This document shows, piece after piece, positions 2,960 to 37,898 of a stretch of 57,322 nucleotides of DNA (position 1 is its first letter; the number at the start of each line of letters is the position of its first letter). The DNA comes from Phycisphaerae bacterium (GTDB lineage: Bacteria; Planctomycetota; Phycisphaerae; SM23-33), in contig PUND01000043.1 of assembly GCA_003551645.1 (NCBI GenBank), forward strand, positions 1 to 57,322, read 5' to 3'. The notes under the pieces are model-generated. The model had not been told where the DNA came from. It saw only the letters and a list, made by a program, of their open reading frames with translations, and did no database searches. Made by a program: the position numbers and the translations under genes.

Positions 2960-3334
2960 AGCTCGCTCCTTCGACTCTGACAATGCGTACATTACCCGGA
3001 CAGTGACGATGATCGTCCCTGCCGCATTGGTCCGGGCTTTCTCAGGTGGGCTTGCCCGGCTACGGCAGCGGGAGATTTCGGACGAACTTTAAGCTCACGC
3101 ATTAGTTGCGCCAAGCTAAATCCGTGCGAAATATTTATTTTGTCCGCTCTGTGTTTCGCCCCCCGTTTTCTGCGCGCGCGGTCAGCGAGTCGCACCCCGG
3201 TCCGTCGCAAAAAAGCGCGTTTTTTTTAGCCCACTGTTCGGCTTGGCTTAGCCGGTCTCCCTCCGGCGACCGGCAAGACCTGCGCGCGCACGTTCCGGCC
3301 GACGGCCGAAAAGGCGAGGACGGAACAATTAACA
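2960..3334. other. Intergenic region between the DUF2752 operon and the phage module
   Basis: No credible gene. It contains a GC-rich hairpin (CCGGGC at 3032-3037 pairing with GCCCGG at 3054-3059), the second direct repeat (3171-3195) and a run AAAAAAGCGCGTTTTTTTT near 3211-3228. It must hold the divergent promoters for the membrane operon (minus) and the portal gene (plus), but no promoter here is convincing. Confidence 0.5.
3171..3195 (+). repeat. Imperfect direct repeat, copy 2
   Basis: TGCGCGCGCGGTCAGCGAGT followed by CGCAC, three mismatches to 2287-2311. It ends 139 bases before the portal start codon. It could be an old recombination or attachment scar, or part of a dispersed repeat. 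Confidence 0.6.
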
Positions 3335-5625: not shown

Positions 5626-6786
5626 ATGGCATTTACTGGAAAGGCAACCTACTCCGCCGGGGCCGACCTGCCGGAGATAGCCGAGGACGTAGCCGACATC
5701 GTCAGCATCGTCTCGCCCTATGAGACACCCCTGCTGGACCGGCTGGGCGACCCGACCCGGGCCGCGACCAGCACCTTCCACGAGTGGCTGGAAGATGAGC
5801 TTCTGCCCAACACCGACGCCACCGACGACGGCAACTGGACCGACCCCACGAACCAAAACACCTTCGGAGTCGCACACACCGACCGTTTCCGCGTGGGCGA
5901 CCAGATTCGCGCCGCCGGAAGCGATGAGCTGATGATGGTAACTGAGGTCGATACCGGCGCCGGGGAGATCACCGTCACCCGCGGCTACGGCGGCACGACA
6001 CCGGAGGACCTCTCCGACGGCCTGACGCTGCACATCCTCGGCAACGCCGCCCTCGAAGGCGACGACTCCCCTGCCGCCCGCTTCACCACCCGCACCCGAA
6101 AGGGCAACTGGACGCAGATATTCACAGCCGGCATCCGCATCAGCGGCTCGGAGCTTGCCGCCCGCAAGATCGCCGTCGCCGACGAGCTGGACTACCAGAA
6201 GCAGGAGCGGCTGCGCGAGCTTCTGCGCGACCTGGAGAACACGGTCGTCAACGGAACCGCCCCGACGGCCGATCAGCAGGGATCGGCAACCGTCCGCAGA
6301 ACCATGCGTGGCATCCTGCCGGCGCTTACCGGCAACATCTTTCTGCCCGGCGAGGACGGCTTCCCCGCCGAGGCCAACCTCACCGAGGAGCAGCTCAACC
6401 TCGCCCTGAGGCGGATATGGGAACAGTCCGCCAGCCGCATCGACACCATCGTCGTCAACGGCCACCAGAAGCGCCGCATCAACGGCTTTATCACCAGCAC
6501 CCGCGCCTACGGGCCTGAGGATGTGGCCTTCCGCGACCTGGTGAGTACCTACGAGAGCGACTTCGGCGTCTGCCGCGTGGTGCTGTGTCGGCACATGCCG
6601 GCCGATGCGGTCCTGCTGCTGGACAGCTCGCGCATCGATGTGCTGCCGCTGGCCGGACGCAGCTTCCACTACAAGCCGCTGGCGACCACCGGCGACTACG
6701 AGAGCGGCGAGGTCATCGGCGAATACACCGTCGAGCTTCGCAACGAGAACGCACACGGGGTCATCAAGTCGCTGTCCGCCGCGTAG
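5626..6786 (+). CDS. Phage major capsid protein, SU10-like (DUF5309 type)
   Basis: Protein of 386 residues. The N-terminus (DIVSIVSPYETPLLDRLGD) and the blocks FTAGIRISGSELAARK, LLRDLENTVVNGT and IDTIVVNGHQKRRING match the pattern of SU10-like HK97-fold capsid proteins. The C-terminus GEYTVELRNENAHGVIKSL is also typical. An insertion of about 80 residues after residue 90 (VGDQIRAAGSDELMMVTEVD...) looks like a beta-rich decoration-type segment. The ATG is preceded by AAGGAGAC. No separate prohead protease gene is present between portal and capsid. Confidence 0.85.
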   Translation: MAFTGKATYSAGADLPEIAEDVADIVSIVSPYETPLLDRLGDPTRAATSTFHEWLEDELLPNTDATDDGNWTDPTNQNTFGVAHTDRFRVGDQIRAAGSDELMMVTEVDTGAGEITVTRGYGGTTPEDLSDGLTLHILGNAALEGDDSPAARFTTRTRKGNWTQIFTAGIRISGSELAARKIAVADELDYQKQERLRELLRDLENTVVNGTAPTADQQGSATVRRTMRGILPALTGNIFLPGEDGFPAEANLTEEQLNLALRRIWEQSASRIDTIVVNGHQKRRINGFITSTRAYGPEDVAFRDLVSTYESDFGVCRVVLCRHMPADAVLLLDSSRIDVLPLAGRSFHYKPLATTGDYESGEVIGEYTVELRNENAHGVIKSLSAA

Positions 6787-6927: not shown

Positions 6928-7578
6928 ATGAGACGATTCTGCCAAGACCGAGACCTGCTGGCCGTCGAGCCGGTGATGTTCCTGGGCGGCGGATTTCCCG
7001 CCCGTGTGCCCGCACGCGGGGAAGACGCTGAGTTCAGCGGCACAACCTTCACCTCGGCCGCGAGCGACTTCCACGCCGCCGGTGTGGCCCCGGGCATGGT
7101 CCTGACCGTCTATGCCGCCACGCCGTCGGAGGGGCTGGCCCTGGAGATAATCTCGGTGGACTCGACCACCACGCTGACGGTTTCTGTTCTGCGGGCGTCC
7201 ATCGAGGATGAGCCGGTCGCTCCGCCCGCCGACGGTGAGAAATTCCACATCCGATCATACGACGTGCGGATATCCCGCGTATCGGAAGCACTCGCCGAGA
7301 CGCTGCGCCGGATGTCCGAGGCGGCAGGCATCTCGGCGGCCCACTTTTCGGACTCTTCGCAACTGACCGCCACGACGTGCTACGGCGTGCTGGCCGAGTG
7401 CTTCACCGCGCGGTCGGCCGGCGGGTCGGCCGACGACGCCAACTGGATAAAGGCCCGCCACTATCGCGAGCTGTTCCGCTCGTCGCGGCTGGGGCTGCGG
7501 CTGGCGGTGGACATCGACGGCGACTGCGTCGCCGAGCGTACCCGCACGCTCGGCAACATCCTGCTGAGGAGGACGTAG
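6928..7578 (+). CDS. Phage head-completion-like protein
   Basis: Protein of 216 residues, TGGAG before the ATG. The first 110 residues look like a beta-rich domain (MVLTVYAATPSEGLALEIIS), and the second half is helical (RVSEALAETLRRMSEAAG, ARHYRELFRSSRLGLRL). Its position directly after the capsid gene is where connector or head-completion proteins normally lie. I do not recognise a named family. The role is inferred from order and size. Confidence 0.65.
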   Translation: MRRFCQDRDLLAVEPVMFLGGGFPARVPARGEDAEFSGTTFTSAASDFHAAGVAPGMVLTVYAATPSEGLALEIISVDSTTTLTVSVLRASIEDEPVAPPADGEKFHIRSYDVRISRVSEALAETLRRMSEAAGISAAHFSDSSQLTATTCYGVLAECFTARSAGGSADDANWIKARHYRELFRSSRLGLRLAVDIDGDCVAERTRTLGNILLRRT

Positions 7579-7580: not shown

Positions 7581-8015
7581 GTGGCCGGCGTCGCGAAGAC
7601 CGTTCTTGACTCGATAGTGCAGTCCCTCCGTTCGGAGGCCGGTCCATCGGGACTGGCGGTTGTGATCGCGGGCGAGTCGGCCGATGAAACGGCCGTGCCG
7701 CGGGCGAACGTTCTGTACCGGGGCTGCGACGCCTTCGAGCCGGACGACTCGCCCGCCGGCGGATGGTTGCGGCTGCGTTATCGCGTCGAGGTTCGCACCC
7801 GCTGCGATGGTGCGGCTTCCGGCCTCGGCCGGGCGGCCGAGCTTGCGGAATCCGCCGTCGTCGCCCTGCTGGCCGACCCGTACCGGGGCGGCGTATGCGC
7901 GGACCTGCCGGTCGGCAGGGCCACGGAGATAGGGCGGGTGGAGGTGCTCACGCAGCTTCGCCGCCCGGAAGCCGGCGTGGCGCTTGAGGTCCGCTGTCAC
8001 GTGGAGGAAAGCTGA
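7581..8015 (+). CDS. Phage tail-completion-like protein
   Basis: Protein of 144 residues, starting at the GTG at 7581 because GAGGAGG lies 7 bases upstream within the end of the previous gene; the track start at 7377 is inside that gene. Its length and its mix of helix and strand (LRYRVEVRTRCDG, ELAESAVVALLADPYRGG, GVALEVRCHVEES) suit tail terminator or neck proteins. Its stop overlaps the next start (TGATG). No named family recognised. Confidence 0.65.
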   Translation: MAGVAKTVLDSIVQSLRSEAGPSGLAVVIAGESADETAVPRANVLYRGCDAFEPDDSPAGGWLRLRYRVEVRTRCDGAASGLGRAAELAESAVVALLADPYRGGVCADLPVGRATEIGRVEVLTQLRRPEAGVALEVRCHVEES

Positions 8016-8422
8016 TGGGTCGCTACACTCGCATCGGCTCCGTGGAGTTCGACTCGTCTCCGTTGCCGCTGCCGGTGTCTGTGCGGGTGTCGCGCCGGGC
8101 CGAACCGCTGCCGGCGTCCGGGGACAACCACGCATTCGCCACCAGCGTCGAAACCGCCACGCCCGTTTTCTCGGCGGAGGTTCGCATTCGTGACACCTCG
8201 GCCGCCGAGCAACTTGACCTCGGGCAAAGGGGCGACCTGGGCTTCACAGTCCGCGCGGCCGAGCAGGACAAGCCCCACAGGAGGGTCACGCTCAAAGGCG
8301 CCGTGCTGCTGGCGGTGGAGCTGGCATACGAGCAGACCGAGGCGGCGGACGCGACGCTGCGGTTCGTCGCCGAGGCCGAGACCGGCTCGCAGGAGCCGTT
8401 TAGCGCGGGAGACCAGCCATGA
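8015..8422 (+). CDS. Phage tail-tube-like or neck protein
   Basis: Protein of 135 residues beginning MGRYTRIGSVEFDSSPLPLP and continuing with alternating strands (TPVFSAEVRIRDT, RRVTLKGAVLLAVELAYEQ). A small beta-barrel protein at this point of the order would fit a tube or neck subunit. It overlaps the previous gene by one base and the next by four. Function inferred from context only. Confidence 0.6.
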   Translation: MGRYTRIGSVEFDSSPLPLPVSVRVSRRAEPLPASGDNHAFATSVETATPVFSAEVRIRDTSAAEQLDLGQRGDLGFTVRAAEQDKPHRRVTLKGAVLLAVELAYEQTEAADATLRFVAEAETGSQEPFSAGDQP

Positions 8423-8784
8423 GTTCGTTCGGCGGCAGTAACCTGTTCGGCTCCGGCCCGCACTCCATTCGTCCGTGTTCGTGGGGGCGGTCGCAACAGC
8501 GGCGCGGCTTCGACGCCCTGGACGGCGAGGTGGTGCTGGACGACGGGCTTCGCGGCCGAACCATCGAACAGACCGGCCGACTCCGGGCATCCACCGCATC
8601 GGCCCTGCAGACGCTGATTGAGGACATCGAGCAGCTCATAGACGGGCGGACGCATACGCTGCTGGACAATCACAGCCACGTTTACCCCAACGTGATGCTC
8701 CAGAGCTTCGAGCCGCGGACCCCCATCCAGAAGGGCCGGTCGTACTGGTGCGACTACACGGCCCGCTACCTGCAACTGCCATGA
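8419..8784 (+). CDS. Phage structural protein, unknown
   Basis: Protein of 121 residues. Notable features are LDDGLRGRTIEQTGRLRAST, a helical middle (LQTLIEDIEQLIDGRTHTLL) and YPNVMLQSFEPRTPIQKGRS, a pattern like small virion proteins with strand-helix-strand domains. ATGA-type overlap with the previous gene. The next gene starts four bases before its end. No family recognised. Confidence 0.6.
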   Translation: MSSFGGSNLFGSGPHSIRPCSWGRSQQRRGFDALDGEVVLDDGLRGRTIEQTGRLRASTASALQTLIEDIEQLIDGRTHTLLDNHSHVYPNVMLQSFEPRTPIQKGRSYWCDYTARYLQLP

Positions 8785-9500
8785 CCGGCCAATTCACAAC
8801 CGAAGGAATCGACGGGCTTTCCGCCCTGCCGCGGGCCGTGCCGCCGGGCTGGCGCGTGAGGTTCCGCTCGAAGCACGCGGGCATGGCGCATCAGCTCTAC
8901 GTCAACGGCCGGCTCGCCGACTGGACCGACACCACCGACCGGCGAAGCTTCACGCTGGACGACTACGGCCCGTGCGAGTTGACGGTCGCGGCCGTGGCCC
9001 CGCGCGAAAGGGCTACGGACTTCTCGCACCTCCTGCCGGATGAGGTCCGCCGTCCGGCGTGGGTCTTCGAGGCGGCTATCCCGCGTGGGACCGACCTGGG
9101 CCGGTCGGACCGCATCGAGGCGACGATCGTCGGCGAAGCCGGGCCGATCGCATCCTTCGAGGCCTGGCCGGAGCACATCCGCCGATGGGCCTGGGGTGAG
9201 GACCGCTTCGGCAAGGGCGGTTTCGGCTACGACGGCTCGCTCGCGCCCGGTGCCGGGTTGGGTGCGTTCGGGGCCGGGGCGTTCGGTATGGACGCGGATG
9301 TAATCCGACTGCGGATGCCCATCCCGGCGACGGGCGAGCACGAAATCACCATCCGCAGCGTAAGCGACAAAGGCCCCGCAGCCGAGTTGCCCCCGATTCA
9401 GTTCATCTCCGCACCGCCTCCGGCTGCGCCAGAGTCGATAGCCGTCGCCGCTTACGACAACCAGACCCAGACAGTAACCCTGCAAATCCAGAGAGGTTGA
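8781..9500 (+). CDS. Phage structural protein with Gly/Phe-rich loop
   Basis: Protein of 239 residues. The ATG at 8781 overlaps the previous stop; the track start at 8748 is less likely. The N-terminal half is a fibronectin-like beta domain (GWRVRFRSKHAGMAHQLYVN). The middle carries a Gly/Phe-rich loop (WGEDRFGKGGFGYDGSLAPG, then GLGAFGAGAFGMDAD), followed by IRLRMPIPATGEHEITIRSV and a Pro/Ala linker. Probably a tail or baseplate-associated component; this is inference. Confidence 0.6.
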   Translation: MTGQFTTEGIDGLSALPRAVPPGWRVRFRSKHAGMAHQLYVNGRLADWTDTTDRRSFTLDDYGPCELTVAAVAPRERATDFSHLLPDEVRRPAWVFEAAIPRGTDLGRSDRIEATIVGEAGPIASFEAWPEHIRRWAWGEDRFGKGGFGYDGSLAPGAGLGAFGAGAFGMDADVIRLRMPIPATGEHEITIRSVSDKGPAAELPPIQFISAPPPAAPESIAVAAYDNQTQTVTLQIQRG

Positions 9501-9501: not shown

Positions 9502-10323
9502 ATGACCGAAATGCACCCGCCCGACGCCACACTCAACGCCCTTTCCGGAACCGCCGACGACGAGCAGGAGGTGCCCTTCCCGACCATCGGCGAGTCGCCT
9601 TACTACACCAGCTTCTACAGGATGCTTCATCGCCTGCTCGACGTGGCCCGCCGCGCCGGCGACCTGCGCGTGTACAAGGACGGGGAGCTTACCTTCGGCA
9701 TCCGGTGCGGCCGCTTCTTCGACGGCGACGAGCTGCGAGAGTACCCCGGCTCATCCGGCAACGCGCTGGCAAACAACGCCGAGAACCACATCTATCTGGA
9801 CGCCGCTGGTGCGCTTCACGTCTCGACCGGCGGCTTCCCGCCTCCGGCGACGCCGCACATCCGCCTGGCGACCATCACCACCGCCGCGGGCGGCTATACG
9901 CACGCCGACATCGGCGACCGGCGCGGCCCGGCCATGTTCGCGCTGTCCAACGGGCTGTCGCCCTCTCGGCTGCAAGACCTGCTGCCGGGCATGGCAATCA
10001 CCGCCGGTGAGCAGACCGGCGATACGCGGACCGTCACCTGCCAAGTCACCGACGCGGCCGGAAACGACCTCGCCGAGCGGTTCCGCATGCGCCTGTGGGT
10101 GGCGACGGTCGAGTTCGGGCCGCCCGGCGCCGACGGCAACTCGGTGAGCGTTACCGGCGGCGAGTTGCTCCGGGAGATAACCGCCGAGGCGGATTATGAG
10201 CTTATCACCGCGCCGGACGGCTCGGCCGCCGTGGACCTGGCCGTCACGCCGCCTGCGAGCCGCTGGGTCTGCGCGGAAATCGACGGGCGCATCCACTGCT
10301 CCAACGAACTGACATACGCCTGA
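9502..10323 (+). CDS. Phage structural protein, unknown
   Basis: Protein of 273 residues with GAGAGG just before the ATG. It contains YYTSFYRMLHRLLDVARRAG (helical), LTFGIRCGRFFDGDELREYP, a NAENHIYLDAAGALHVSTGG strand region and a C-terminal Ig-like segment ending in WVCAEIDGRIHCSNELTYA. The layout suggests a helical anchor followed by beta domains, as in tail fibre adaptors. No family recognised. Confidence 0.6.
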   Translation: MTEMHPPDATLNALSGTADDEQEVPFPTIGESPYYTSFYRMLHRLLDVARRAGDLRVYKDGELTFGIRCGRFFDGDELREYPGSSGNALANNAENHIYLDAAGALHVSTGGFPPPATPHIRLATITTAAGGYTHADIGDRRGPAMFALSNGLSPSRLQDLLPGMAITAGEQTGDTRTVTCQVTDAAGNDLAERFRMRLWVATVEFGPPGADGNSVSVTGGELLREITAEADYELITAPDGSAAVDLAVTPPASRWVCAEIDGRIHCSNELTYA

Positions 10324-10334: not shown

Positions 10335-12449
10335 ATGCCATTACACCACTACATCGACAACGAGGTCCCGGACTTCGCCGAGTGGGACACCGTCGTCGCT
10401 GACGGCGGCGCAACCGTCGTGCAGACGGCAGAGTCCGGCTTCCCGGAAAGAGGCAAGCTCGGACTGCGGATCGACTGTCAGATGGAACAGGCGTGGGTCG
10501 AGAAGCAGCTAGGCGGCGCCGGCGATCACCTGGCGATCGGCTTCTGGATGAGGATCGTCGAGCCGCCTGACTGGGCCTGGTGGATGACGAAGCTGGGCGT
10601 CTGCGAGGCCTGCGCGGAAGACGACGCCGGCATGCGACTGCACCTTCGGCAACACCCAAACGGCCTGTGCCTGTCGCTGCACCAGGCGACGGACGGTTCC
10701 CTGAACGTGATCAACGACGATCTGCTCCTTGATAGTCAGCGATGGCACTACCTGGTCGCCGTCTGTCACTGGGGTCAGAGCGAGTGTGAGGCCAAACTCT
10801 ACATCGACGGCTCACTCCGCGGGCATTCGGTCCTGGCCGACTGCGGCGCAGGCAGGCGTCCGGACCGGGTGCGTCTCGGCTGCACCGAGTCCGGCGGGGT
10901 GTGCCCGGTCGTGCTGGACTTCGACGAGATCAAGATCGCCGACGCCTACCCCGAACCGTTCCGGGCCGAACCGCAGACGGAGCACCCGGCGCCGGAGCGG
11001 ACCGTGGTGCTGGTCGCCGACACTGAATATGGCCGGGAGTTCGCCGACGGTTGCGTCGAGATGCTGGGCATTCCGCGTGGCAACCGGTGTGTGCTGTCCA
11101 ATGCCTCCACGGACGAGACGCTTCAGGACCACGCCGCCTTCGAGCAGCAGGTTGAAAACGACCTGCGGGCGTGGCTGGCGACCAACCCCACGGCCGCCGC
11201 CCGATGCAACTGCCTGCTGCTGGGCGGCGACCTGCCCGGGTACTTCATGCACGACGGGCTGCGGCACTCGGCCACCTCCCGACTGATGAATACGCACCAG
11301 CCGTTCTCGACCGGGTCGGACAATCCGTTGTACGCCCCCGGTGAGGTTACACGGCTGACCAAGGCGGCCCTGGACGGTTTGTATCTGGTGACGCGCATAG
11401 ACGCCCCGGACCCGCAGGACGCGAGGACGGTGATGTCGCGGTCGGTTTCCGTATCCGCAATGGAGTCGCTGCCGGCCGACAACCTGCTCTACTGCGACGA
11501 TGCGGCTTATCGCCCATCCCCGGCATGCGGGCGTCTGCGCATGCCGACGTCCGATATCTCGAAGCTGGATATGGCGGCGATGGTCTGGGGCCGGGTCGCC
11601 GACCCGCAGTTCGGCGACGGAGGTACCCGCGCCGTCTTCGCCGACACATCGGCCGGCTCGGCCGCCACGCTGAGGGACAAGAGCTTATCCTGCGGCCGGG
11701 CGCTGTTTGATGCCGGCTTCGCCGCCGCACTTGGTTGCAGTGATGAGCCGGACGACTTCGACGTCGAGAGTTTCTTCGAGATGCTCCGCATCGGCGGCAC
11801 GCTTGCCGAGGCGTTCGCCGTCGCCACGGCCCGGCTGGACTACACATCGGTCGCCTGCGGCGTTCCGACCATGACGGTCGCGACACCCCGAGCCGGCGTG
11901 AACATCTATCACGGCGTCGGAAGCGCCGACGCCATCGACTACTCCGCACCGATGGCGTATCTGCACGAGAACCAGCAGACCGTCGATGTGCCGCTGGAGC
12001 TTGCCGCCGGCCGGAGACACTACCTGGCCGCGCGGGCGGTCTCGTCGGCCAGCGTCGAGGAGAACAATACCCACATCATCACCTGCGCACGTGCCGACGC
12101 CCAGGGAGTGATGCTCGGCGAACCGCTGCCGACGCCGACCGATCTCGTAGTCGATGTCCTGTCGCCGGGCCGCGTGGCGATCGGCTTCGTATGCCGAGTC
12201 GAGCCGGGCCTCGCCCGACCGGAGGCGTTTGAGGTGCTCTCGGACAACGGAAGCGGGCAACTGGACGCCGACAACCCCGTCGCGAGCATCCCGGCGGCCG
12301 ACGACCGGGAAGTGTTCATGGCCCAGGCGACCGACCTGACCCTGCCGGCAAAGCTGGCCGTCCGCTGCCGCCGAGACGGGCACACCGGCGAGTTGAGCCA
12401 AACAGTGAACGCCGCCTGGCCGACGCCCGCGCCGCCGGCTGTGCTTTGA
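10335..12449 (+). CDS. Large fibre-like protein: LamG-like lectin fold plus TIGR03790-like domain
   Basis: Protein of 704 residues, the largest of the module. Residues about 1-210 resemble a LamG/concanavalin-type jelly roll (LAIGFWMRI, LYIDGSLRGHSVLADCGAG, RPDRVRLGC, DFDEIKIADAYPEPF). Residues about 225-535 follow the pattern of the TIGR03790 family: VVLVADTEYGREFADGC, CLLLGGDLPGYF, GLYLVTRIDAPDPQDAR, then GGTLAEAFAVATARLDYTSV and CGVPTMTV. The C-terminal 140 residues are beta-rich. LamG suggests carbohydrate or surface binding. The second domain is unusual in a virion protein. GAGGC precedes the start. Confidence 0.65.
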   Translation: MPLHHYIDNEVPDFAEWDTVVADGGATVVQTAESGFPERGKLGLRIDCQMEQAWVEKQLGGAGDHLAIGFWMRIVEPPDWAWWMTKLGVCEACAEDDAGMRLHLRQHPNGLCLSLHQATDGSLNVINDDLLLDSQRWHYLVAVCHWGQSECEAKLYIDGSLRGHSVLADCGAGRRPDRVRLGCTESGGVCPVVLDFDEIKIADAYPEPFRAEPQTEHPAPERTVVLVADTEYGREFADGCVEMLGIPRGNRCVLSNASTDETLQDHAAFEQQVENDLRAWLATNPTAAARCNCLLLGGDLPGYFMHDGLRHSATSRLMNTHQPFSTGSDNPLYAPGEVTRLTKAALDGLYLVTRIDAPDPQDARTVMSRSVSVSAMESLPADNLLYCDDAAYRPSPACGRLRMPTSDISKLDMAAMVWGRVADPQFGDGGTRAVFADTSAGSAATLRDKSLSCGRALFDAGFAAALGCSDEPDDFDVESFFEMLRIGGTLAEAFAVATARLDYTSVACGVPTMTVATPRAGVNIYHGVGSADAIDYSAPMAYLHENQQTVDVPLELAAGRRHYLAARAVSSASVEENNTHIITCARADAQGVMLGEPLPTPTDLVVDVLSPGRVAIGFVCRVEPGLARPEAFEVLSDNGSGQLDADNPVASIPAADDREVFMAQATDLTLPAKLAVRCRRDGHTGELSQTVNAAWPTPAPPAVL

Positions 12450-12644: not shown

Positions 12645-14339
12645 ATGAACACGCTGAAGCTTTCAAAACGCACCGAATCGCCCGTGCTGCGATGCGCCGC
12701 TCCACTGGTCTTCGTGGACGGCCGGTTTCGTCCGGATTTGCGGGGCCGCTTGTGGGAGGTCCTGCCGGCGCCGCGTTTCGGGCGGGCGCGGCTCGAGGTC
12801 CGGGGCCGGGCAGTGCTTCCGCCGCCGCGGATCGGCTCACACGTGCTCCTGCTCGGGCCGGGCGCGGTCGGTCAGTTCCTCGGCGTGGTGGATTCCCGCA
12901 TCGACCGGCTGGGCGAACAGGCCGACCCGCCCGGAGTCGAGGTCCGCCATATCCTCGCTGAAAAGCTTTCCGACAGGGTCGCCGCCCGGCACCTGCTCAT
13001 CGGCGGGGAGCCGGTCGAAATACGAAGCGGCACTGTGGGCTTCAACACCGGCTGCGATTCGATGGCGACACCGAACGACCACACCCTCAACGGGCGGAAG
13101 ACGCCGTTGTTTTCGTCGGCCGCCGACGCCCGGCGGTGGAGCGTGGCCGATGCTCTTGCGTATCTGCTGGCGGCGTGCGTGCCGCCGGAGGTGGAGGTCC
13201 AGGATATCGACGAGCTTCGCGAGCTTGCCGGCGGAATCAACGCCGGCGAGTCCGACATCACCGGCCGGACGGTAGCCGAGGCGCTGGCGAACGTCGCCGC
13301 CGCCGCGGCGCTGGAACTGCGGGCCGCGCGGGCCGGTGAGGGGCTGGTGTTCTACCGCCCCGGCAGGCAGGGCCGGCTGCGGAGCGTCCGTCTTCAGCCG
13401 AGCGGGCAAAGGGTGCTGGCGTCGGGCAGCAATCTGTGGCGAGGCCGGCTTGAGTTTCACCGTCGGCCGGGCCGGCGCGGCGTGCTGGCTCTGGGGGCGC
13501 GCCGGCGGTACGAGGCCACATTCGAGCTTTCGCCCGGCTGGGACCCCGCGAAACAGACTCACCGCTGGCGAGACTTCGTTCGCGGCGAGGCCGCCGACTG
13601 GCCCGACGTTTCGCGGGTTTACCGCAAGTGGGTGCTCAACGAGCACGCTCGTTACAGCGGCGAGCCGTGGAACCTGCCGGTGCACGACTTTTCCGAGATA
13701 GACCCGTATGCGTTCACCGCCCTGTCCCCGCGACGGTTCCTGCCGTGCATCTCCACCGACGAGGCCGGGCAATCGCTGGGCATGGCGGTGGAGTTCCGCC
13801 GCGGCGGGGAAGACCAGTGGCGACGCTGGCCGGGACCGGTCTGGACGTGCGAGGACGAGTGCGCCGTGCTGCTCGGCGGCGACTCGCTGCCGGGCGACTT
13901 CTTCGCAGCGGCCGCTGCCGGCGAAGCGCAAGTGCGCATCACGGCGACCGTGCAGGCCGACGCCCGCCTGATAGCCGAGGTCCCAGGCGACCCCAATCTG
14001 CCGACCGAGACTGCGGACTTCTCCGACCGCGCCGCCTGGCAGCGGGTCTCGCCGCTGAGTGTCTTCTACGGCCGTGGAGACCTGGGCGTGCCCGACGAGC
14101 GCGACGACGCCGATATGCTCGCCGAGCTTGCCCGCCGCCACGCCGAAGGCGCTTGCGAGGCGGTCGAGGCGCATCTGACGCTGGGCTGGCCGGATGCGTC
14201 TTTCCACGTGGGCGACCGCGTGGAGCGGATCGACGGGCGGGCGATTGAGCTTGCCCCTCACGCCGACGCGGCGCCGCGGGTCCGCTCGGTCCGCCACGAC
14301 TTCGACCGATTGACAACCGAACTGACTGTCACTGGATGA
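12645..14339 (+). CDS. Phage baseplate/tail-hub-like protein
   Basis: Protein of 564 residues; CAGGAACC precedes the ATG. It has an N-terminal beta region (DGRFRPDLRGRLWEVLPAPR), a helical middle (SVADALAYLLAACVPPEVEV, TVAEALANVAAAAALELRAA), and a C-terminal part with HLTLGWPDASFHVGDRVERI and RVRSVRHDFDRLTTELTVTG. The last block resembles the end of gp27/late-control-D-like hub proteins, where a short strand domain closes the ring. Assignment rests on this pattern and on gene order. Separated from the previous gene by 195 bases holding a repeat. Confidence 0.6.
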   Translation: MNTLKLSKRTESPVLRCAAPLVFVDGRFRPDLRGRLWEVLPAPRFGRARLEVRGRAVLPPPRIGSHVLLLGPGAVGQFLGVVDSRIDRLGEQADPPGVEVRHILAEKLSDRVAARHLLIGGEPVEIRSGTVGFNTGCDSMATPNDHTLNGRKTPLFSSAADARRWSVADALAYLLAACVPPEVEVQDIDELRELAGGINAGESDITGRTVAEALANVAAAAALELRAARAGEGLVFYRPGRQGRLRSVRLQPSGQRVLASGSNLWRGRLEFHRRPGRRGVLALGARRRYEATFELSPGWDPAKQTHRWRDFVRGEAADWPDVSRVYRKWVLNEHARYSGEPWNLPVHDFSEIDPYAFTALSPRRFLPCISTDEAGQSLGMAVEFRRGGEDQWRRWPGPVWTCEDECAVLLGGDSLPGDFFAAAAAGEAQVRITATVQADARLIAEVPGDPNLPTETADFSDRAAWQRVSPLSVFYGRGDLGVPDERDDADMLAELARRHAEGACEAVEAHLTLGWPDASFHVGDRVERIDGRAIELAPHADAAPRVRSVRHDFDRLTTELTVTG

Positions 14340-14899
14340 CCATGAAGACCGACCGCGTTTATCACGATTCGTTCAAACACCTCTCCCAGGCCGGCGGCGG
14401 AACGGGCGTGCTGCTTGCGCGCATCGTCGCGGCCGAGACCGGCAACCGCTACTCGGCCGTCGCCGTGGAGTTCGACGGTGACGGTCTGACACAGCCGGTC
14501 GGGGATGAGGTTGTGGTAACCAACCTGGCCGAGGACCCATCCGCCGGCGGAAACCTGCCAGCCGGCACCGAGGCGCTGGCCGTGGACACCGAGGGCCGGT
14601 GGGTGGTGCACGTGCGCGCCTTTGGGACGGCCGTGTTCGCTGCCCGGGTGATAGCCCACGCCGGGACGGCCGGCCGCTACATCGTCCGCGAGCAGGCGCT
14701 GTCGCCGGAGGGCACCTTCGAGGACAAGCCCGGTGCCGACGACGTTACCGCGACGAACCTGGCGGAGCTTTCGCTGGGCGACGGGGCGGCCGTCGATGAT
14801 GACACCATCGTACTGGTGCACGCGGTGCCGGATACAGGCGAGCCGCCGACGCCGCGGCACGTGTTCGACCATCCCGCCTACGCCAAATACCTGGACTGA
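14336..14899 (+). CDS. Phage structural protein, unknown
   Basis: Protein of 187 residues that overlaps the previous stop (ATGACCATG; the second ATG at 14342 is also possible). Beta-rich: GTGVLLARIVAAETGNRYSA, GDEVVVTNLAEDPSAGG, RWVVHVRAFG. The residues VTNLAE and ATNLAEL recur, hinting at an internal duplication. An OB-fold or spike-type domain would fit the position after a hub gene, but this is inference. Confidence 0.6.
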   Translation: MTMKTDRVYHDSFKHLSQAGGGTGVLLARIVAAETGNRYSAVAVEFDGDGLTQPVGDEVVVTNLAEDPSAGGNLPAGTEALAVDTEGRWVVHVRAFGTAVFAARVIAHAGTAGRYIVREQALSPEGTFEDKPGADDVTATNLAELSLGDGAAVDDDTIVLVHAVPDTGEPPTPRHVFDHPAYAKYLD

Positions 14900-14904: not shown

Positions 14905-15945
14905 ATGAGCTACAACCCAACATGGCAGAACGCCGACCCGGCCGGACAGGTCGTCGCGGCCGAGCACTTCATCCGGCTCAGCGACGCCGCCGAGCTTGCC
15001 GACGCGGTCAACCGCCGCCGGCTGCTGACCTACCAGGCGGAGCAGGACTTCTCGTCGGACATCGCCGCCGGCGCGCATGTGAGAAACCGGGTAATCGACT
15101 CGGCCGAGGCCCCGCCTTACGACGCGTTCCGCAAGTCGCTCGCCGAGAAGATACTGCACCCGCCCGTTGGCACGCTCGGCGGACAGCCCGCCTCCCCGCT
15201 GGCTATGGACTGGCTCTGGCCGATAGCCGACGGCGATGAAGACAAACTCCTGGTCGCCGGCGACGCCGACGAAGGCCAGGTGGGGCTTTTCGAGAAGCTC
15301 AACGGAACCGACGACTGGACCGACGCGACGCTGACGCCGGGGCAGTCGCGCATACGCGCAGTACACATCAACGAACTGCGGCAGGCGGTGGAGTGGATCC
15401 GCCGCGGGCGCTGGGTCCTGCCTGTGTATCCGGAAGCGGGCCTGTTCTCGCCGATGCCGGATACGCCCTGGGGCGGCGGGTTCCTCGCCAACGATGGCAG
15501 CGAGGAGCTTCGGGTGGTGGGCTTTTCGATGTTGCGTACGCCCGAGACGCCGCCGCGCGGGCTGACCGACGTTACCGTCCGGCCGTCCACCCGCATCGAG
15601 CTTCTCGCCAGCGACGACTGCACGCTCCAGGTGCACCATTGCCTGCGGGAAATCGACTTCCAGACCAACCCGCCGACGTGGAACCAGTACGCTCCCGACG
15701 CCTCGGCCGCATGGTCGCAACCGGGCGGGCTGGGCGAAGGCGATTCGCTGCCGATCGGTTCGCTGACGCTAACCGCCGGCGAGCCGGGGCATATGTCCGG
15801 CCCGGTGGTCGCCGCGGCGCTTCAGGCGATGACAGACGGCGCCGAGCGGAACCTGCTTGTCCGCAGGGAAGACACCGGCCCGCAGACCGTTGAGATAACC
15901 GTAATGCTGGTCGTGGAGTTCGACCTTCTAACGCCGCCGAACTAG
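14905..15945 (+). CDS. Phage tail fibre/adaptor-like protein
   Basis: Protein of 346 residues. It carries IRAVHINELRQAVEWIRRGR (about residues 151-170), a short helical motif that I associate with tail fibre or attachment proteins of environmental phages, here followed by RWVLPVYPEAGLFSP. The C-terminal half is beta-rich (TVRPSTRIELLASDDCTLQV, TVEITVMLVVEFDL). No strong ribosome site. It is the last large virion gene; a repeat element follows. Confidence 0.6.
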   Translation: MSYNPTWQNADPAGQVVAAEHFIRLSDAAELADAVNRRRLLTYQAEQDFSSDIAAGAHVRNRVIDSAEAPPYDAFRKSLAEKILHPPVGTLGGQPASPLAMDWLWPIADGDEDKLLVAGDADEGQVGLFEKLNGTDDWTDATLTPGQSRIRAVHINELRQAVEWIRRGRWVLPVYPEAGLFSPMPDTPWGGGFLANDGSEELRVVGFSMLRTPETPPRGLTDVTVRPSTRIELLASDDCTLQVHHCLREIDFQTNPPTWNQYAPDASAAWSQPGGLGEGDSLPIGSLTLTAGEPGHMSGPVVAAALQAMTDGAERNLLVRREDTGPQTVEITVMLVVEFDLLTPPN

Positions 15946-16040: not shown

Positions 16041-16061
16041 CATCGACGCTTGCACCCGCTT

Positions 16062-16094: not shown

Positions 16095-16373
16095 ATGAAC
16101 CTGATCTCCGTTCTATATGACCTGGCCGGCTTTGGGGCCGCGGGGCTTATGGGAGCCATGTGGCTGTGGGAGCGCCGCCTCAGCCGCCGGCGGGAAGAGC
16201 AACTCGACGACGCCCACGAGCGAATCCGCCGCGACGAACAGCGGCTGGACAAACTCACCGAGGTCGTCGAGCGGAACACCGCCGCCGTAGCCGGCTTCGC
16301 CGAGACGCAGCGACAGGTGCACGAGACGCTGAAAGACCTCAGCAGGGAGCTTCGACATGACCGGACGTATTAA
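16095..16373 (+). CDS. Small membrane-anchored coiled-coil protein
   Basis: Protein of 92 residues: an N-terminal membrane segment (LYDLAGFGAAGLMGAMWLW) then a charged coiled coil (RRREEQLDDAHERIRRDEQR ... QRQVHETLKDLSRELRH). The layout is like small phage membrane proteins of the lysis or holin region, but no family is recognised. The start lacks a ribosome site because a repeat directly precedes it. The end overlaps the next gene by 17 bases. Confidence 0.6.
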   Translation: MNLISVLYDLAGFGAAGLMGAMWLWERRLSRRREEQLDDAHERIRRDEQRLDKLTEVVERNTAAVAGFAETQRQVHETLKDLSRELRHDRTY

Positions 16374-16857
16374 GCTGATTTGCCTCATCCCACCGGCGCT
16401 GCTTTGTGCCGGCTGTGCCGAGACGGCCGCGGTGAACCTGATCTCCGTAGCCCGCGAGGGCATCGCCGACGCCCGCGGCGCCCAGCAGGACCAGCACGAG
16501 GAACTGATGACCCGGCTCGCCGGGCAGAAGGAGTCGCTGGACGAGGCGTTCGACTCGGACGTCCGCCTGGTCGCGGCCGGCGGAATCACCGACGCCGACG
16601 GCGAGCCGGTGGAGCTGACGCCGGAGTGGGTCATCTCCGCCCGCGCCGGCTACGCCGCGGCCCGCGACGTCGTCGCCGCGGAAATGCTCTCCGCCGAGCT
16701 TGCCCACGCGGCGCGTCTGGACAACCTCGCCGCGGCCGACGAGGCCCTTGAGATGGCGACCGACCTGTTGCTCCGCCAGGCGGGGCTGACCGAGCCGGTC
16801 CGCGTCAAACTGCTGGATAAACACGGGAGATGGATTGATGACAGACAACAGCGTTGA
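16357..16857 (+). CDS. Predicted lipoprotein of the phage module
   Basis: Protein of 166 residues. The N-terminus MTGRIKLICLIPPALLCAGC ends in a lipobox (LCAGC), so export and lipidation at Cys20 are expected. The rest is helical and acidic (GAQQDQHEELMTRLAGQKES, AARDVVAAEMLSAELAHAAR). A lipoprotein after a membrane coiled-coil gene recalls o/i-spanin pairs of lysis cassettes, though Rz1-type proteins are usually much shorter. Role uncertain. Confidence 0.65.
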   Translation: MTGRIKLICLIPPALLCAGCAETAAVNLISVAREGIADARGAQQDQHEELMTRLAGQKESLDEAFDSDVRLVAAGGITDADGEPVELTPEWVISARAGYAAARDVVAAEMLSAELAHAARLDNLAAADEALEMATDLLLRQAGLTEPVRVKLLDKHGRWIDDRQQR

Positions 16858-17095
16858 ACAGGCCGTTTCACAGGCGGTGGACCGCGCCTACGACCGCTGG
16901 GCCGCCGAACACCCATCTCTGGCGCGGGTGATAGACCGGCTGGCCGTCACAGAACGGACCAGCGAGTCGCTCCGTGATTCGGAGGCCTATCGCAAGGCCG
17001 TGGCGGACTACCACCGCGGCCGGAACGAACTGGAACTCATACACCGACTGACGGAGCTTGCCGCGCCGCTGGTGCGGAAGCTGCTTTCCGGCTGA
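16838..17095 (+). CDS. Small helical protein, unknown
   Basis: Protein of 85 residues starting MTDNSVEQAVSQAVDRAYDR. The ATG at 16838 is preceded by GGGAGATGG; the track start at 16835 is a TTG one codon earlier. Entirely helical and charged, ending LTELAAPLVRKLLSG. It overlaps the lipoprotein gene by 20 bases. No family recognised. Confidence 0.6.
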   Translation: MTDNSVEQAVSQAVDRAYDRWAAEHPSLARVIDRLAVTERTSESLRDSEAYRKAVADYHRGRNELELIHRLTELAAPLVRKLLSG

Positions 17096-33374: not shown

Positions 33375-34178
33375 CTAACGCCTGCCCGCCTCGAGCGGCT
33401 GGACGCGGAACACCGCCGGCCAGAGTCCCGTTATCCGCTCCCGGGGATATAGCTCCGAGGGGTAGCGGTCGTTCAGCGGCTGGAGGCGGACGGTGTCTTC
33501 GTCGTCCTGGTAGAAGCGTTTGAAGGTGGTCTCGGCGTCCTCGGCGAAGCGGATGAAGCAGTCGTCGCCGGACCTTGCCGGCGTATTGGGCGAGAAGATG
33601 ACGATATCGCCCTCGTGGTAGGACGGCTCCATAGAGTCGCCCACCACCCGTGCGGCGAAGGCCTGGGCGTCGTGGACGTCCGGACAGCGGATATACTCAT
33701 CCGCCACGCTAGGTGGATAGTCCAGGTCTGTGAAGTGTCGCGGGTAGCCGGCCGTTACCTTGTTGATAATCGGCACCGACGCCCCGGCCGTCAGAGTGCG
33801 CACGTTGCCCGCGTTCTCCGGCTCGATCTCGGCCGCCAGCGCATCGAGGTCAACTCCGCCGCCGGGCTTGCGCGGGCCCTCGGATATAAGACCCCTCAGC
33901 ACGCTGCGGAGCTTCTGTATCTGGGCGTCCTTGCGCTCGTACTCGTCGCGAACGTCGGCCGGCGTGCGCGCAAGGTGGGCAAGCTTGGTAAGCTCGCCCG
34001 CGCCAAAGCCGAGCACACGTTCCAAGGCCCGCAGCACGCCGTCGGTCGGTGGGTTCTTGGCCCGGCCGGTCTCGATGGTCGAAAGGTACGGCTTGGAAAT
34101 GGCCGCCTGTTCGGAGACCTGATCCTGCGTCAGGCCCAGCTCCTCCCGACGACGCCTTATAATCGCACCTATGTTCAT
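33375..34178 (-). CDS. XRE/S24 (LexA/CI-like) repressor
   Basis: Protein of 267 residues from the ATG at 34178. N-terminal HTH: NIGAIIRRRREELGLTQDQV SEQAAISKPYLSTIETGRAK. The C-terminal S24 peptidase domain has the catalytic Ser in VVGDSMEPSYHEGDIVIF and the Lys in ETTFKRFYQ, so self-cleavage as in LexA or phage CI is likely. Linker residues of the LTAGASVPIINKV type could hold the cleavage site. Such repressors keep phage operons silent until DNA damage. A divergent promoter region with three dyads lies directly upstream. Confidence 0.88.
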   Translation of the reverse strand: MNIGAIIRRRREELGLTQDQVSEQAAISKPYLSTIETGRAKNPPTDGVLRALERVLGFGAGELTKLAHLARTPADVRDEYERKDAQIQKLRSVLRGLISEGPRKPGGGVDLDALAAEIEPENAGNVRTLTAGASVPIINKVTAGYPRHFTDLDYPPSVADEYIRCPDVHDAQAFAARVVGDSMEPSYHEGDIVIFSPNTPARSGDDCFIRFAEDAETTFKRFYQDDEDTVRLQPLNDRYPSELYPRERITGLWPAVFRVQPLEAGRR

Positions 34179-34353
34179 AGCCGCTCTCCCGCCCCCCGGC
34201 TGAACCAAATCGGCCATCCCTGCCACGAAACCCGCAACACCAACCAGGCCCGCGAAAATGCCCGAGCCATGCTCATCAGCCGCGCACCGCGAAAGACCGA
34301 ACGCCCGGCTTCACGGCCGCCCGGTCGGCTGCGTCCATTACGGAAACGAGTAA

Positions 34354-34658: not shown

Positions 34659-35093
34659 ATGCCGCTGTCTTTGCGTGAGAACATCTGCCGGCACCAGGAA
34701 TTACCAGACGACCAGGAGGTGATTCGAGGTCGTATCGAGCTTTTGGACAGTCCCGACAGGGATTTGCTCGAGGCGATCCTCATACAGGGCCAATCGGCCG
34801 CATCGCTGGCCAGGATCATGGGCGTCCGTCCGCGGACGCTCCGCGAGCGGGTCCGCCGCCTCACCCACCGGCTGAGCAGCCGACGGTTCCTCGATGCGGC
34901 AAGGTCGCTGAGTTACCTGTCCGCGGAGGATGCGGAGCTGGCCCGCATGCACTTCTGCCAGGGCCTCAGCCAGAGGGAACTCGCCCGGCGGCTGGGCACG
35001 AGCACGCATGCCCTTCGCCGTCGGCTGGACCGCATCGATGCCGAGATAACCGCCATCCGCCGGCTCCACCGCAGCCGGTCGCCGCGCCACTGA
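34659..35093 (+). CDS. Double helix-turn-helix protein of the packaging operon
   Basis: Protein of 144 residues with GAGGGACG before the ATG. Two HTH-like repeats are visible: SAASLARIMGVRPRTLRERV RRLTHRL (residues about 47-72) and SQRELARRLGTSTHALRRRL DRI (about 105-128), both like sigma70 region 4. There is no region 2, so it is not a full sigma factor. It precedes the ABC-GNAT and terminase genes, so it could be an operon regulator, or a DNA-recognising small terminase substitute. Both are inferences. A long leader (about 190 bases) separates it from the promoter. Confidence 0.7.
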   Translation: MPLSLRENICRHQELPDDQEVIRGRIELLDSPDRDLLEAILIQGQSAASLARIMGVRPRTLRERVRRLTHRLSSRRFLDAARSLSYLSAEDAELARMHFCQGLSQRELARRLGTSTHALRRRLDRIDAEITAIRRLHRSRSPRH

Positions 35094-35146: not shown

Positions 35147-36385
35147 ATGCCCGCCACAAGACCCGCCGGCTGTTTCCGTCGGCGCACCACCATCAGCATT
35201 TCGTTCAGCCGCCCCGCCGCCCGAGGCCGGGACGCGTCGAGAGTCGCCCGCCTGTTCGGCATCTCCGCCGGCCGGGACCGGATATGGGACGAACTGACCG
35301 TTGAACTCGCCGCCGGCGAGATCGTCGCCGTCGTCGCTCCCAGTGGGGCCGGCAAGAGCGTGCTGCTGAGGCGCATCGCCCGCCGGGTCCCCGGCACCGT
35401 GGTACTGGATGCTGTCGGGCCGGCGATCACCGGTCTGCCGGCGATCGAATACGTCGGCGAGGGCCCTTTCCGGAGGCGGCTTGATCTTCTCAGCCGCTGC
35501 GGGCTTGCCGACGCGGCCGCGATTGTACGCCCGGCTGCCCGGCTCTCCGGCGGACAGCAGTGGCGGCTGGCCCTTGCCGCGGCTCTGAACGCCGCAACCC
35601 GAACGGCCGAACCCCGGCTGGTGATAGCCGACGAGTTCGGCTCCGGCCTGGACGCCATCACCGCGACGGTCCTGGCCCGGCAGGTTCGCTCGCTGATACG
35701 GCCACGGCGGCCGGATGCGCCGGCGATGCTGCTGGCGACGCCGCGGGCGGAGCTGCTGCCCTGGCTCCGGCCGGACCGCACCATCGTCAAGACGCCCGGA
35801 GAGCCGGCTGGCGTGTTGACGCGGTGGCGCAGGCCCACGGGGCGGCGCCGGCCTCCCTGGGGCGGATTCCGGCTTATGCCCGGCCGGATAGCCGACTACG
35901 ACGCCCTTTCCAGCTGGCATTACCTCACCTGCCGGCCCGCCGCGCATAAGAGGGTCTGGGTCGTTCGCACATCGCGCCGCCCGCCGGGGGCGCCCGCGAC
36001 AGCCGGCGTACTGGTGGTCTCACCGCCGTCGATGCGCTGCCGCGGACGCAACCAGGCGACACGGCGGCGGTACCTCGGTCCGGACCACCGCCGGTCGCTT
36101 GCGCTTCTGAACGCCGAAATCGAGTGCATATCGCGTGTGGTGGTGCACCCGATGTATCGCGGCTGCGGGCTGGCGACCGCACTGGTCCGTCACTCGGTGG
36201 CCACGGCCGAAACGCCGCTTGTCGAGGCCCTGGCGGTTATGGGCGGCGTGCATCCGCTCTTTGAGGCCGCGGGGATGAGCCGCATCGGCCGCTTCGCCGG
36301 CACGCGAGAGTACCACTACTTCCTGGCCCGCCGTCGGCCGGCGGTTCCGTCGGCCAGGCAAACGGAGATCCTGCTGAATGACTGA
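35147..36385 (+). CDS. ABC ATPase fused to GNAT acetyltransferase domain (COG2401 architecture)
   Basis: Protein of 412 residues. The ABC ATPase half has Walker A APSGAGKS (64-71), the signature RLSGGQQWRLALA (132-144) and Walker B RLVIADEFGSGLDA. The C-terminal half has the GNAT acetyl-CoA motif RVVVHPMYRGCGLATALVRH. There are no membrane segments, so it is not a transporter subunit. The combination of an ABC-type ATPase with a predicted acetyltransferase is known as COG2401. Its stop overlaps the terminase start by 8 bases, indicating coupled expression. Function unknown; a DNA-processing or packaging accessory role is inferred from the neighbour. Confidence 0.82.
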   Translation: MPATRPAGCFRRRTTISISFSRPAARGRDASRVARLFGISAGRDRIWDELTVELAAGEIVAVVAPSGAGKSVLLRRIARRVPGTVVLDAVGPAITGLPAIEYVGEGPFRRRLDLLSRCGLADAAAIVRPAARLSGGQQWRLALAAALNAATRTAEPRLVIADEFGSGLDAITATVLARQVRSLIRPRRPDAPAMLLATPRAELLPWLRPDRTIVKTPGEPAGVLTRWRRPTGRRRPPWGGFRLMPGRIADYDALSSWHYLTCRPAAHKRVWVVRTSRRPPGAPATAGVLVVSPPSMRCRGRNQATRRRYLGPDHRRSLALLNAEIECISRVVVHPMYRGCGLATALVRHSVATAETPLVEALAVMGGVHPLFEAAGMSRIGRFAGTREYHYFLARRRPAVPSARQTEILLND

Positions 36386-37898
36386 CACACCCAACGCCCG
36401 CCTTCGGCGAAGAAAACCCACAAGTCGCAAGACCGCCGGCCCAGCCGAGCCGAAAGACCGGCCGGCCGCGCCGCCGAAGCCGCGGACACCGCATCAGCTC
36501 GCCCGACTGGTCCGCGACGCCTTCGGGCTGAACGTCCCGCCCGGTCCGTGCTGCGACCATCACAACTCGCCGCTGGATTACCTGGTGGCGAGCTTCTTCG
36601 GCGAGCGCGATTTGCTGGTCTGGGCCAACCGCGGCGGCGGCAAGACCATGATGGCGGCCGTGGCGACGCTGCTGGACGCGATATATCACGGGCCGGTCCA
36701 CATCCGCGTTATCGGCGGCAGCTTCGATCAGTCCGACCGGCTGGCCGAGCACATCCGCGAACTGCTGGAGCACAGACCAGACCTGCTCGCCAAACCGCCC
36801 ACCCGCGACCGCGTGCGGCTTGTCGGCGGTTCGGAAATCCGCATGCTGCCGCAGTCGGAACGGGCGGTCCGCGGCCAGCACGTCCAGAAGATACGCTGCG
36901 ACGAGGTGGAGCTTTTCGACGAGCGCGTCTGGCGGGCCGTCCAGTTCGCCACGCGGTCCACCGCGTCGGCTCGCGGGTCCATCGAGGTGCTCTCAACGCT
37001 CCACCGCAGCGGCGGGCTGATGCATCGGCTGGTAAGCGACGCCGAGCGGCTGGCCTCCCCCCTGCCGGCCGACGGCGCCGGCGGCAAGCCCGGCTATGCA
37101 CTGATACACTGGTGCCTGTGGGACGTTATCGAGCCGTGCCCCGCCTGGCGCGACTGCAACGGCTGTCCGCTGGCCGACGACTGCCGGGGCGTCGCCCGCA
37201 ACGGCAAGGGGTTCTTCCGAATCGACGACGCCATCGCCATAAAGGCCCGCTCCAGCCGCGCCGCATGGGACGCCGAGATGCTCTGCAAGGGGCCGCACCG
37301 CGACTGGCTGGTGTTCCCGGAGTTCGACGTGGCCCGCCACATCCGCCATGCGGAATACTGCCCGGACTGGCCGATGTACCGGGCGATCGACTTCGGCTAC
37401 CGCAGCCCGCTGGTGTGTTTGTGGATACAGGTAACGCCCGCCGGCACTGTGCACGTGATAGACGAGTACGTCCGCCGCCGCCTGCCCCTGACAGCACACG
37501 CCGAGGAGATACTCCGCCGCGACCCTCCGGCGGCGAAGACGGCCATGACCTACGTGGACCCGGCCGGCCGGCAGAAAGAGGCCACCAGCGGCGCCGCCTG
37601 CACCGAGCTTCTCCGGGCCGCGGGCATCCCCAGCACCTGCCGGGCCAGCACCATCGCGGAGGGGCTGGAGCTTATCCGCTCCGCACTGGCCCCGGCGTGC
37701 GGAGAGCCGTCGCTGGTTATCGACCGGCGGTGCGGGCGGCTTATCGACGCCTTCCACAGCTACCACTACCCGCCCGGCGGCGACGCCCGGTCCGAACAGC
37801 CCGCCAAGGACGGCCCGGACCACCTCATCGACGCGCTGCGGTATTTCTTCGTCAACCGGATGCGGCCGAAAGTTGCCGTCCGCCGGGGCAGGTATTAG
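36378..37898 (+). CDS. Phage terminase large subunit
   Basis: Protein of 506 residues, the packaging motor and DNA-cutting enzyme. ATPase: Walker A NRGGGKT (84-90), Walker B with Glu in KIRCDEVELFD (about 171-181), then the coupling region STLHR. A Cys-rich insertion CPAWRDCNGCPLADDCRG (about 254-270) could bind zinc. RNase H-like nuclease: AIDFGYRSP, TYVDPAGR and DHLIDALRYF provide the acidic residues. All key residues look intact. No small terminase is recognisable. It lies about 19 kb from the portal gene, though normally adjacent. Confidence 0.9.
   Translation: MTDTPNARLRRRKPTSRKTAGPAEPKDRPAAPPKPRTPHQLARLVRDAFGLNVPPGPCCDHHNSPLDYLVASFFGERDLLVWANRGGGKTMMAAVATLLDAIYHGPVHIRVIGGSFDQSDRLAEHIRELLEHRPDLLAKPPTRDRVRLVGGSEIRMLPQSERAVRGQHVQKIRCDEVELFDERVWRAVQFATRSTASARGSIEVLSTLHRSGGLMHRLVSDAERLASPLPADGAGGKPGYALIHWCLWDVIEPCPAWRDCNGCPLADDCRGVARNGKGFFRIDDAIAIKARSSRAAWDAEMLCKGPHRDWLVFPEFDVARHIRHAEYCPDWPMYRAIDFGYRSPLVCLWIQVTPAGTVHVIDEYVRRRLPLTAHAEEILRRDPPAAKTAMTYVDPAGRQKEATSGAACTELLRAAGIPSTCRASTIAEGLELIRSALAPACGEPSLVIDRRCGRLIDAFHSYHYPPGGDARSEQPAKDGPDHLIDALRYFFVNRMRPKVAVRRGRY

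Follow-up and report, generated by a model that had tools for sequence, protein, structure and literature searches.

Organization of the locus

The window, i.e., the whole stretch of 57,322 nucleotides of contig PUND01000043.1 from a Phycisphaerae bacterium that was analysed here, carries phage-related genes in two places (Table 1). The character of the sequence and weak matches to planctomycete sigma factors also make Phycisphaerae (Planctomycetota) the probable host group. The first is a packaging cassette, in which the gene for a fusion of an ABC ATPase with a GNAT domain is followed by the gene for the large terminase (TerL) and preceded by one for a protein with two helix-turn-helix (HTH) domains, with a repressor gene running in the divergent direction. 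The second is a head cluster (3335–17095), about 30 kb from the cassette.

Table 1. Features of the head cluster and the packaging cassette (positions in the window)
Feature	Position	Strand	Evidence
Candidate operator copy 1, palindrome TGCGCGCGC	3166..3185		about −169 of portal start
Candidate operator copy 2, palindrome TGCGCGCGC	3276..3295		about −59 of portal start
Portal protein, SPP1 type	3335..4933	+	PF05133 2.1e-11; phrog_104 2.5e-19; single copy in 29/60 relatives
Scaffold-like coiled-coil protein in the portal–capsid interval	4945..5556	+	open reading frame and position; similar frames in the corresponding position of L181 and L182; inferred from order
Major capsid protein, SU10 type	5626..6786	+	PF17236 9.2e-85; phrog_1328 5.8e-72; 198/396 genomes
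g3, after the capsid gene, probable head–tail connector	6928..7578	+	no family match; conserved in nearly all structural loci
g4, tail-terminator-like	7581..8015	+	weak match to phrog_4204 (0.014); GTG start
g5, conserved, probable tail or connector gene	8015..8422	+	synteny in family f1
g6, conserved	8419..8784	+	synteny
g7, conserved, tail-like region	8748..9500	+	synteny
g8, conserved, tail-like region	9502..10323	+	synteny
g9, conserved, 704 aa, lectin-like fold match, possible tail fibre or tip	10335..12449	+	Laminin_G_3 5.7e-5, below cut-off; synteny
g10, conserved, tail-like region	12645..14339	+	synteny in families f1, f11, f12, f16
g11, conserved	14336..14899	+	synteny
g12, conserved	14905..15945	+	synteny
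g13, small protein with N-terminal membrane segment, holin-like by position	16095..16373	+	sequence; conserved
g14, lipoprotein-like, possible spanin	16357..16857	+	sequence; inferred
g15, last conserved gene of the head cluster	16835..17095	+	conserved in structural loci
LexA/CI-type self-cleaving repressor (HTH and S24 peptidase), divergent from the packaging operon	33375..34226	−	Peptidase_S24 3.3e-21; conserved cleavage and active-site residues
Protein with two sigma-region-4-like HTH domains, probable activator	34659..35093	+	profile matches; same place in most cassettes
ABC ATPase–GNAT fusion	35147..36385	+	Pfam, PHROGs, alignment, class-wide survey, motif inspection
Large terminase (TerL), ATPase and RNase H nuclease	36378..37898	+	phrog_2 2.7e-17; motifs

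TerL is complete at 506 aa, the Walker A motif and the nuclease motifs AIDFG, VDPAG and DHLIDA all being found. In the repressor, the Ala–Gly cleavage site (INKVsAGYP) and the active-site lysine (TFKR) are present in all 15 loci aligned, and the active-site serine (GDSMEP) in nearly all of them. An Ala–Gly site combined with a Ser–Lys pair is the build of LexA/CI-type repressors, which are cleaved when triggered by RecA; with its HTH and S24 domains, the Ala–Gly site and the Ser–Lys dyad, the protein is thus predicted to be of the SOS-cleavable LexA/CI class.

The neighbours of the cassette that match Pfam families are host-like (aminotransferase class IV, NIF3, AMPK-type CBM, FabA-like, P-type ATPase and ZIP transporter), and within 15 kb of it neither a portal nor a capsid gene was found. 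A small-terminase (TerS)-like gene was not found before TerL in the window's own family and is present in other families. A PEP-CTERM-like secreted protein, recognized by eye at 29694–30491, is unrelated to the ABC–GNAT finding.

The ABC–GNAT fusion protein

The fusion is encoded in a single open reading frame of 412 aa, the only one of its kind in the genome, and joins an ABC domain to a GNAT domain, which is the defining trait of the COG2401-like family. Motif inspection located Walker A (APSGAGKS) at residue 64, the signature LSGGQ at 133, Walker B (RLVIADE) at 157 and the D-loop (SGLD) at 166 in the ABC half, and the acetyl-CoA loop RGCGLA at residue 338 in the GNAT half. The earlier note on this DNA, made from the sequence, had listed complete ABC motifs and a GNAT loop in one protein; this description stands except for the H-loop histidine, which is missing here (LATPR), whereas the phage relatives carry TCHYD. 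The 8-base overlap with the terminase start that it reported was borne out as well, the ATG of TerL at 36378 lying inside the last codons of the fusion gene, whose TGA occupies 36383–36385.

The ABC half was matched by Pfam ABC_tran above the cut-off (E = 3.8e-9) and the GNAT half by Acetyltransf_7 (8.9e-4) and Acetyltransf_1 (0.001) under the cut-offs, while the PHROGs divide the protein into phrog_293 (ABC) and its GNAT partner phrog_886; no family-specific NCBIfam model was found among the 25 matches listed. An alignment of 17 relatives showed H258–Y259, N322, R330, P335, R338, G341 and E360 to be invariant in the GNAT half. The predicted structure of the whole protein had a pLDDT of 66, with a good ABC part; structural comparison of that part returned transporter-type ATPases, which give no functional clue, and the GNAT domain modelled alone (pLDDT 49) gave weak matches, mostly to GNATs, that are unusable as evidence.

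Recurrence of the cassette in the class

Scans of genomes and viral contigs with the fusion protein as a single query gave almost no matches, so that an alignment-based search was needed. Of 60 related genomes, 47 had ABC–GNAT (E ≤ 1e-10) and 42 had TerL (E ≤ 1e-8), and gene maps of 40 loci gave the order of a repressor divergent from HTH, ABC, GNAT and TerL in most relatives. The same fusion recurs as a single copy with the same neighbour across many related genomes. In distant families, ABC and GNAT are separate neighbouring genes, and a ParB-N protein (4.4e-8 in locus L084) and a small TerS-like HTH protein are encoded between GNAT and TerL. The same interval holds an NlpC/P60 peptidase match in L084 (4816–5601) and, in L082 (10820–11461), a peptidase that resembles it by eye; both are possibly lysis or entry enzymes of a particle. 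At one locus (L072 of genome G010, 1–2657), TerL and ABC–GNAT converge at the contig end, unlike at all the others, which is probably a rearrangement or an assembly error.

The survey was extended to a class-wide sample of 396 genomes, with TerL counted at E ≤ 1e-40. GNAT was present in 263 and TerL in 205 of them, and the two occurred together in 194, the window's own genome excluded (odds ratio 35), while capsid and TerL were both present in 181 genomes, with 16 and 23 having one alone (odds ratio 87); these ratios are descriptive only, because they treat the genomes as independent, which they are not. Where TerL and GNAT could both be placed (100 genomes), they lay on one contig in 86 and within 5 kb of each other in 70.

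Related ABC–GNAT genes also occur without this system, in 61 of the 396 genomes, mostly of families f4, f13 and f15, which have neither this capsid nor this TerL; in gene maps of four loci (L090, L092–L094) no TerL of this terminase family was seen nearby. Near one terminase-free ABC–GNAT gene (L091 of G039, 3611–10912) there are genes for an S24-type regulator and a D12 DNA adenine methyltransferase, together with a restriction gene of the SacI type and a gene of the GmrSD/HNH type. The loci without terminase are what could be expected if ABC–GNAT and TerL were functionally unrelated and neighbours by chance, but their adjacency across numerous genera, as well as in phages whose terminases differ (see below), refutes this explanation, which is hardly credible any longer.

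ABC and GNAT genes in phages

A related ABC gene was found in 19 viral contigs, in most of them fused to GNAT and often with a ParB-like gene just upstream. A TerL lies within about 6 kb in seven of the 19 (large open reading frames were tested in nine), and these terminases belong to four families, phrog_38, phrog_9, phrog_979 and phrog_2; since several TerL families stand beside the pair, ABC and GNAT accompany packaging genes whatever the type of terminase. Phages RHph_N1_15 and nickie have, in this order, ParB-like, ABC, small genes, GNAT, an HTH or small protein, TerL, the portal region and capsid, while in SSU5 a ParB–ABC–GNAT run stands at the end of the phage record. The packaging regions of SSU5, Rhizobium phages RHph_N1_15 and RHEph10 and Pseudomonas phage nickie thus share ParB-like, ABC (phrog_293) and GNAT (phrog_886) genes with the chromosomal cassettes, and in RHph_N1_15 and nickie the run also includes genes for the HTH protein, TerL and capsid; the phage regions differ in being true phages of ~100–120 kb, in which ABC and GNAT are separate and ParB precedes ABC. 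In three of these regions (L004–L006, from SSU5, RHph_N1_15 and nickie), the phrog_886 GNAT genes bear the label of ABC transporter ATP-binding subunits, apparently a misannotation that was carried over.

The earlier note had taken the link to a packaging gene for a possible clue to the function of the family, and had proposed a survey of the neighbours of such genes. In the class and in phages alike terminase does recur beside them, which points to a functional link, and in spite of the 61 genomes that lack this capsid and TerL the family is, overall, not one that is usually found away from terminases.

The head cluster

The portal protein matched only SPP1_portal and the capsid protein only SU10_MCP in Pfam. 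The SPP1-type portal occurs once in each relative that has it, and the capsid gene is a single copy in 31 of the 60 relatives and in the class-wide carriers, which represent 133 genera; HK97-type portals (11 of 60) are patchy, HK97-type capsids occur in 13 of 60, and both families are absent from the window genome. Nearly all the capsid matches listed are 56–79% identical to the window protein, the best phage match being 32%. In the window the cluster adjoins purB, as it does in at least nine further genera, and in two other genera (G046 and G055) it lies directly beside the TerL cassette.

The conserved core comprises the portal, scaffold and capsid genes and the gene after the capsid. Tail-like genes are adjacent to it in families f1, f11, f12 and f16 and not in f5, f8, f10 and f14 (L178–L182); because no tail-like genes adjoin the head genes in the latter, their particles may be tailless or have their tail genes elsewhere.

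Capsid homologues with 48–52% identity were also found in 14 genomes outside the class, in families f46, f87 and f89 of the same phylum. These carriers (G433, G454, G472, G486, G500, G514, G527, G539, G549, G559, G569, G578, G586 and G593) have a different gene neighbourhood (L261–L263).

Inserts interrupt the capsid gene of some genomes at about codon 57–61, with a length of 11.5 kb in L257 (G155, 4069–15821) and 6.9 kb in L256 (G038, 3538–10597); the G155 insert carries a large serine recombinase, named by eye (4185–5978 of L257). Interruptions also include L258 (G090), where the two parts are on opposite strands, and L259 (G080). The capsid gene seems to be used as an integration site by a mobile element.

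Candidate operator of the head genes

In five genera, the window's and four others, a copy of the palindrome TGCGCGCGC is found at −51 to −59 relative to the portal start, with a second copy ~110 bases further upstream in two of the five (the window's and G008), and three more genomes have a single copy at −128 to −162; the other loci with the palindrome before the portal are L167, L169–L172, L175 and L179. GCGCGCGC is nearly absent elsewhere in these loci, 9 of its 16 occurrences in family f1 lying in the stretch before the portal, which makes up 1.9% of the f1 sequence (binomial p about 3e-12). TGCGCGCGC was not found in the repressor–HTH region, a search of which for palindromic repeats gave no convincing motif, and a comparison of this region with the one upstream of the portal found no operator in common. 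By analogy with GafA of the gene transfer agent (GTA) RcGTA, the two-HTH protein is a candidate for binding the TGCGCGCGC palindrome.

Inheritance and selection

Trees of the system were compared with that of RpoB. The joined capsid, TerL and portal tree had six supported splits, all six of them common to RpoB, and no supported conflict, and the capsid tree shared nine of its 11 supported splits, with one conflict. The TerL and GNAT trees were restricted to capsid-bearing genomes, as unrelated prophage-type copies, when included, gave false conflicts. For TerL, GNAT, capsid and portal, dN/dS in close pairs was 0.09–0.19, and therefore the genes are maintained by selection rather than decaying; the value is higher in a more distant pair (G046–G055), in which synonymous sites are probably saturated. 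Tree congruence, dN/dS, the site at purB and the single copy together show vertical inheritance and maintenance by selection.

These results bear on the explanation that the genes belong to an ordinary or decaying prophage, in which the terminase came to lie beside ABC–GNAT by accident. All the parts are phage-like, and patchy prophage portals and capsids do exist elsewhere in the class, but the single copy in half of the class, the congruent trees and low dN/dS, the shared chromosomal site, the separation into two clusters and the failure to recognize an integrase largely refute it, and it is now very improbable. The earlier note had been right to suspect a link with the terminase, and had missed both the head cluster and the fact that the system as a whole is inherited vertically.

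Possible role of ABC–GNAT in DNA packaging

The earlier note had considered the COG2401-type fusion to have no assigned function, a view that is out of date: a GNAT coupled with an ABC ATPase, found in some phages, has been predicted to acyl-modify a DNA base (PMC7824862, where previous work by its authors' group is cited). This system has the same pair of domains as the window protein; it is itself a prediction and concerns phages rather than a chromosomal particle cassette. Acylation of DNA by ABC–GNAT is proposed here because of this prediction and because of the company of the gene, i.e., ParB, terminases and the methyltransferase and restriction genes of L091, and the protein is possibly a DNA-marking enzyme inside a packaging operon.

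A further comparison is offered by Mom of phage Mu, for which a GNAT-type fold has been reported and in which, as in the window protein, inspection shows an HY pair towards the N-terminal end of the GNAT part. Mom differs in having no ABC partner, and its profile does not match the window GNAT significantly (hhalign probability 0.2%), a result that is compatible with remote homology. Literature searches found nothing that links COG2401 with terminase, or an ABC ATPase, GNAT, ParB and terminase with one another.

Alternatively, ABC–GNAT might modify a protein, such as TerL, the capsid, the portal or RNA polymerase, or recognize DNA in the place of TerS. GNATs often act on proteins, with phage examples given in PMC7824862, the window's family has no TerS-like gene before TerL, and the frame overlap of ABC–GNAT and TerL suggests coupled translation. 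Replacement of the small terminase, which the earlier note had suggested, is however unlikely as a general role, and is considered for the window's own family only, because ABC, GNAT, ParB-like and TerS-like genes co-occur before TerL in other families. The pair also stands beside the TerLs of several phage families and beside ParB-like genes, and the terminase-free fusion of L091 beside genes of DNA methylation and restriction, which argues against a protein target as well; on balance this alternative is rather unlikely.

A proposed gene transfer agent-like particle system

The window system has a trait expected of a GTA, its capsid, portal and terminase genes being derived from phage and located in the host chromosome; neither an integrase nor a replication gene was recognized beside the cassette or the head cluster, and the flanking genes with Pfam matches are host genes. 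ABC–GNAT probably belongs to a vertically inherited, phage-derived chromosomal DNA-packaging particle system, which is best read as a new kind of GTA, although this assignment is held with some reserve. Against it count the low-confidence GNAT model, the comparison with Mom, which was not significant, the lack of an operator common to both clusters, the missing H-loop histidine, the 61 genomes with a relative of ABC–GNAT only, and the tail-like genes that are not adjacent to the head genes in f5, f8, f10 and f14.

In such a GTA, DNA damage would lead RecA to trigger self-cleavage of the repressor, and the two-HTH protein would switch on the packaging and head genes. ABC–GNAT, as an ATP-dependent, DNA-bound dimer, would then transfer an acyl group from acyl-CoA to bases of the DNA that is handed to TerL, and TerL would fill preformed heads with host DNA, to be released by lysis.

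The genes might also form a domesticated head-and-packaging machine that serves a purpose other than gene transfer, such as DNA storage, killing particles or defence, with ABC–GNAT still working with the terminase. This would suit the families in which no tail-like genes stand beside the head genes and the capsid is nevertheless 56–79% identical and under purifying selection; the window's family and several others, however, keep a large tail-like region and holin-like and lipoprotein-like genes, as expected of a particle that is released, and such a purpose is considered unlikely. The GTA reading could also be carried further, to an ancient GTA of many families of one class and part of a second class of the phylum, which would acyl-mark DNA during packaging, so that the transferred DNA would be recognized or protected in recipients, and whose particle would be tailless, or have had its tail genes moved, in several lineages. 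This extended version is decidedly more doubtful than the GTA reading itself.

If the GTA reading is true, an independent type of GTA, with very slow capsid evolution, would be present in roughly half of the genomes sampled from a whole class. DNA packaging would be the clearest biological setting so far for the ABC–GNAT family, the predicted acyl modification would become testable as a modified base in particle DNA, and the repressor suggests a simple route of induction, by DNA damage.

Comparison with known gene transfer agents

GTAs have been described from alphaproteobacteria, Bartonella, Brachyspira, Desulfovibrio and Methanococcus, those confirmed experimentally coming from few lineages, and reviewers have asked how common they are and how they can be distinguished from prophages (PMC11841831). 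In the titles and abstracts of the part of the literature that was covered, no GTA-like element of Planctomycetota was found. As a kind, the window system is best read as a new variant of GTA, in which the terminase would be one part of a larger particle system.

The structural genes of RcGTA are of the HK97 type, and such portal and capsid homology was not found for the window system by Pfam and genome search, its portal being of the SPP1 and its capsid of the SU10 type. RcGTA has been proven to package DNA and to transfer genes, functions that are predicted for the window system. The two are alike in having a phage-derived head and tail cluster (~14 kb), vertical inheritance, and regulators away from the structural cluster. 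RcGTA has no replication genes, and none was recognized in the two clusters of the window system. GafA, the activator of RcGTA, contains two DNA-binding regions of a sigma-factor/DnaA-like type (PMC9638019), which recall the two HTH domains of the window protein. The window system differs in that its TerL lies in a separate cassette under a LexA/CI-type repressor of its own, together with ABC–GNAT and, in other families, also with ParB-like genes.
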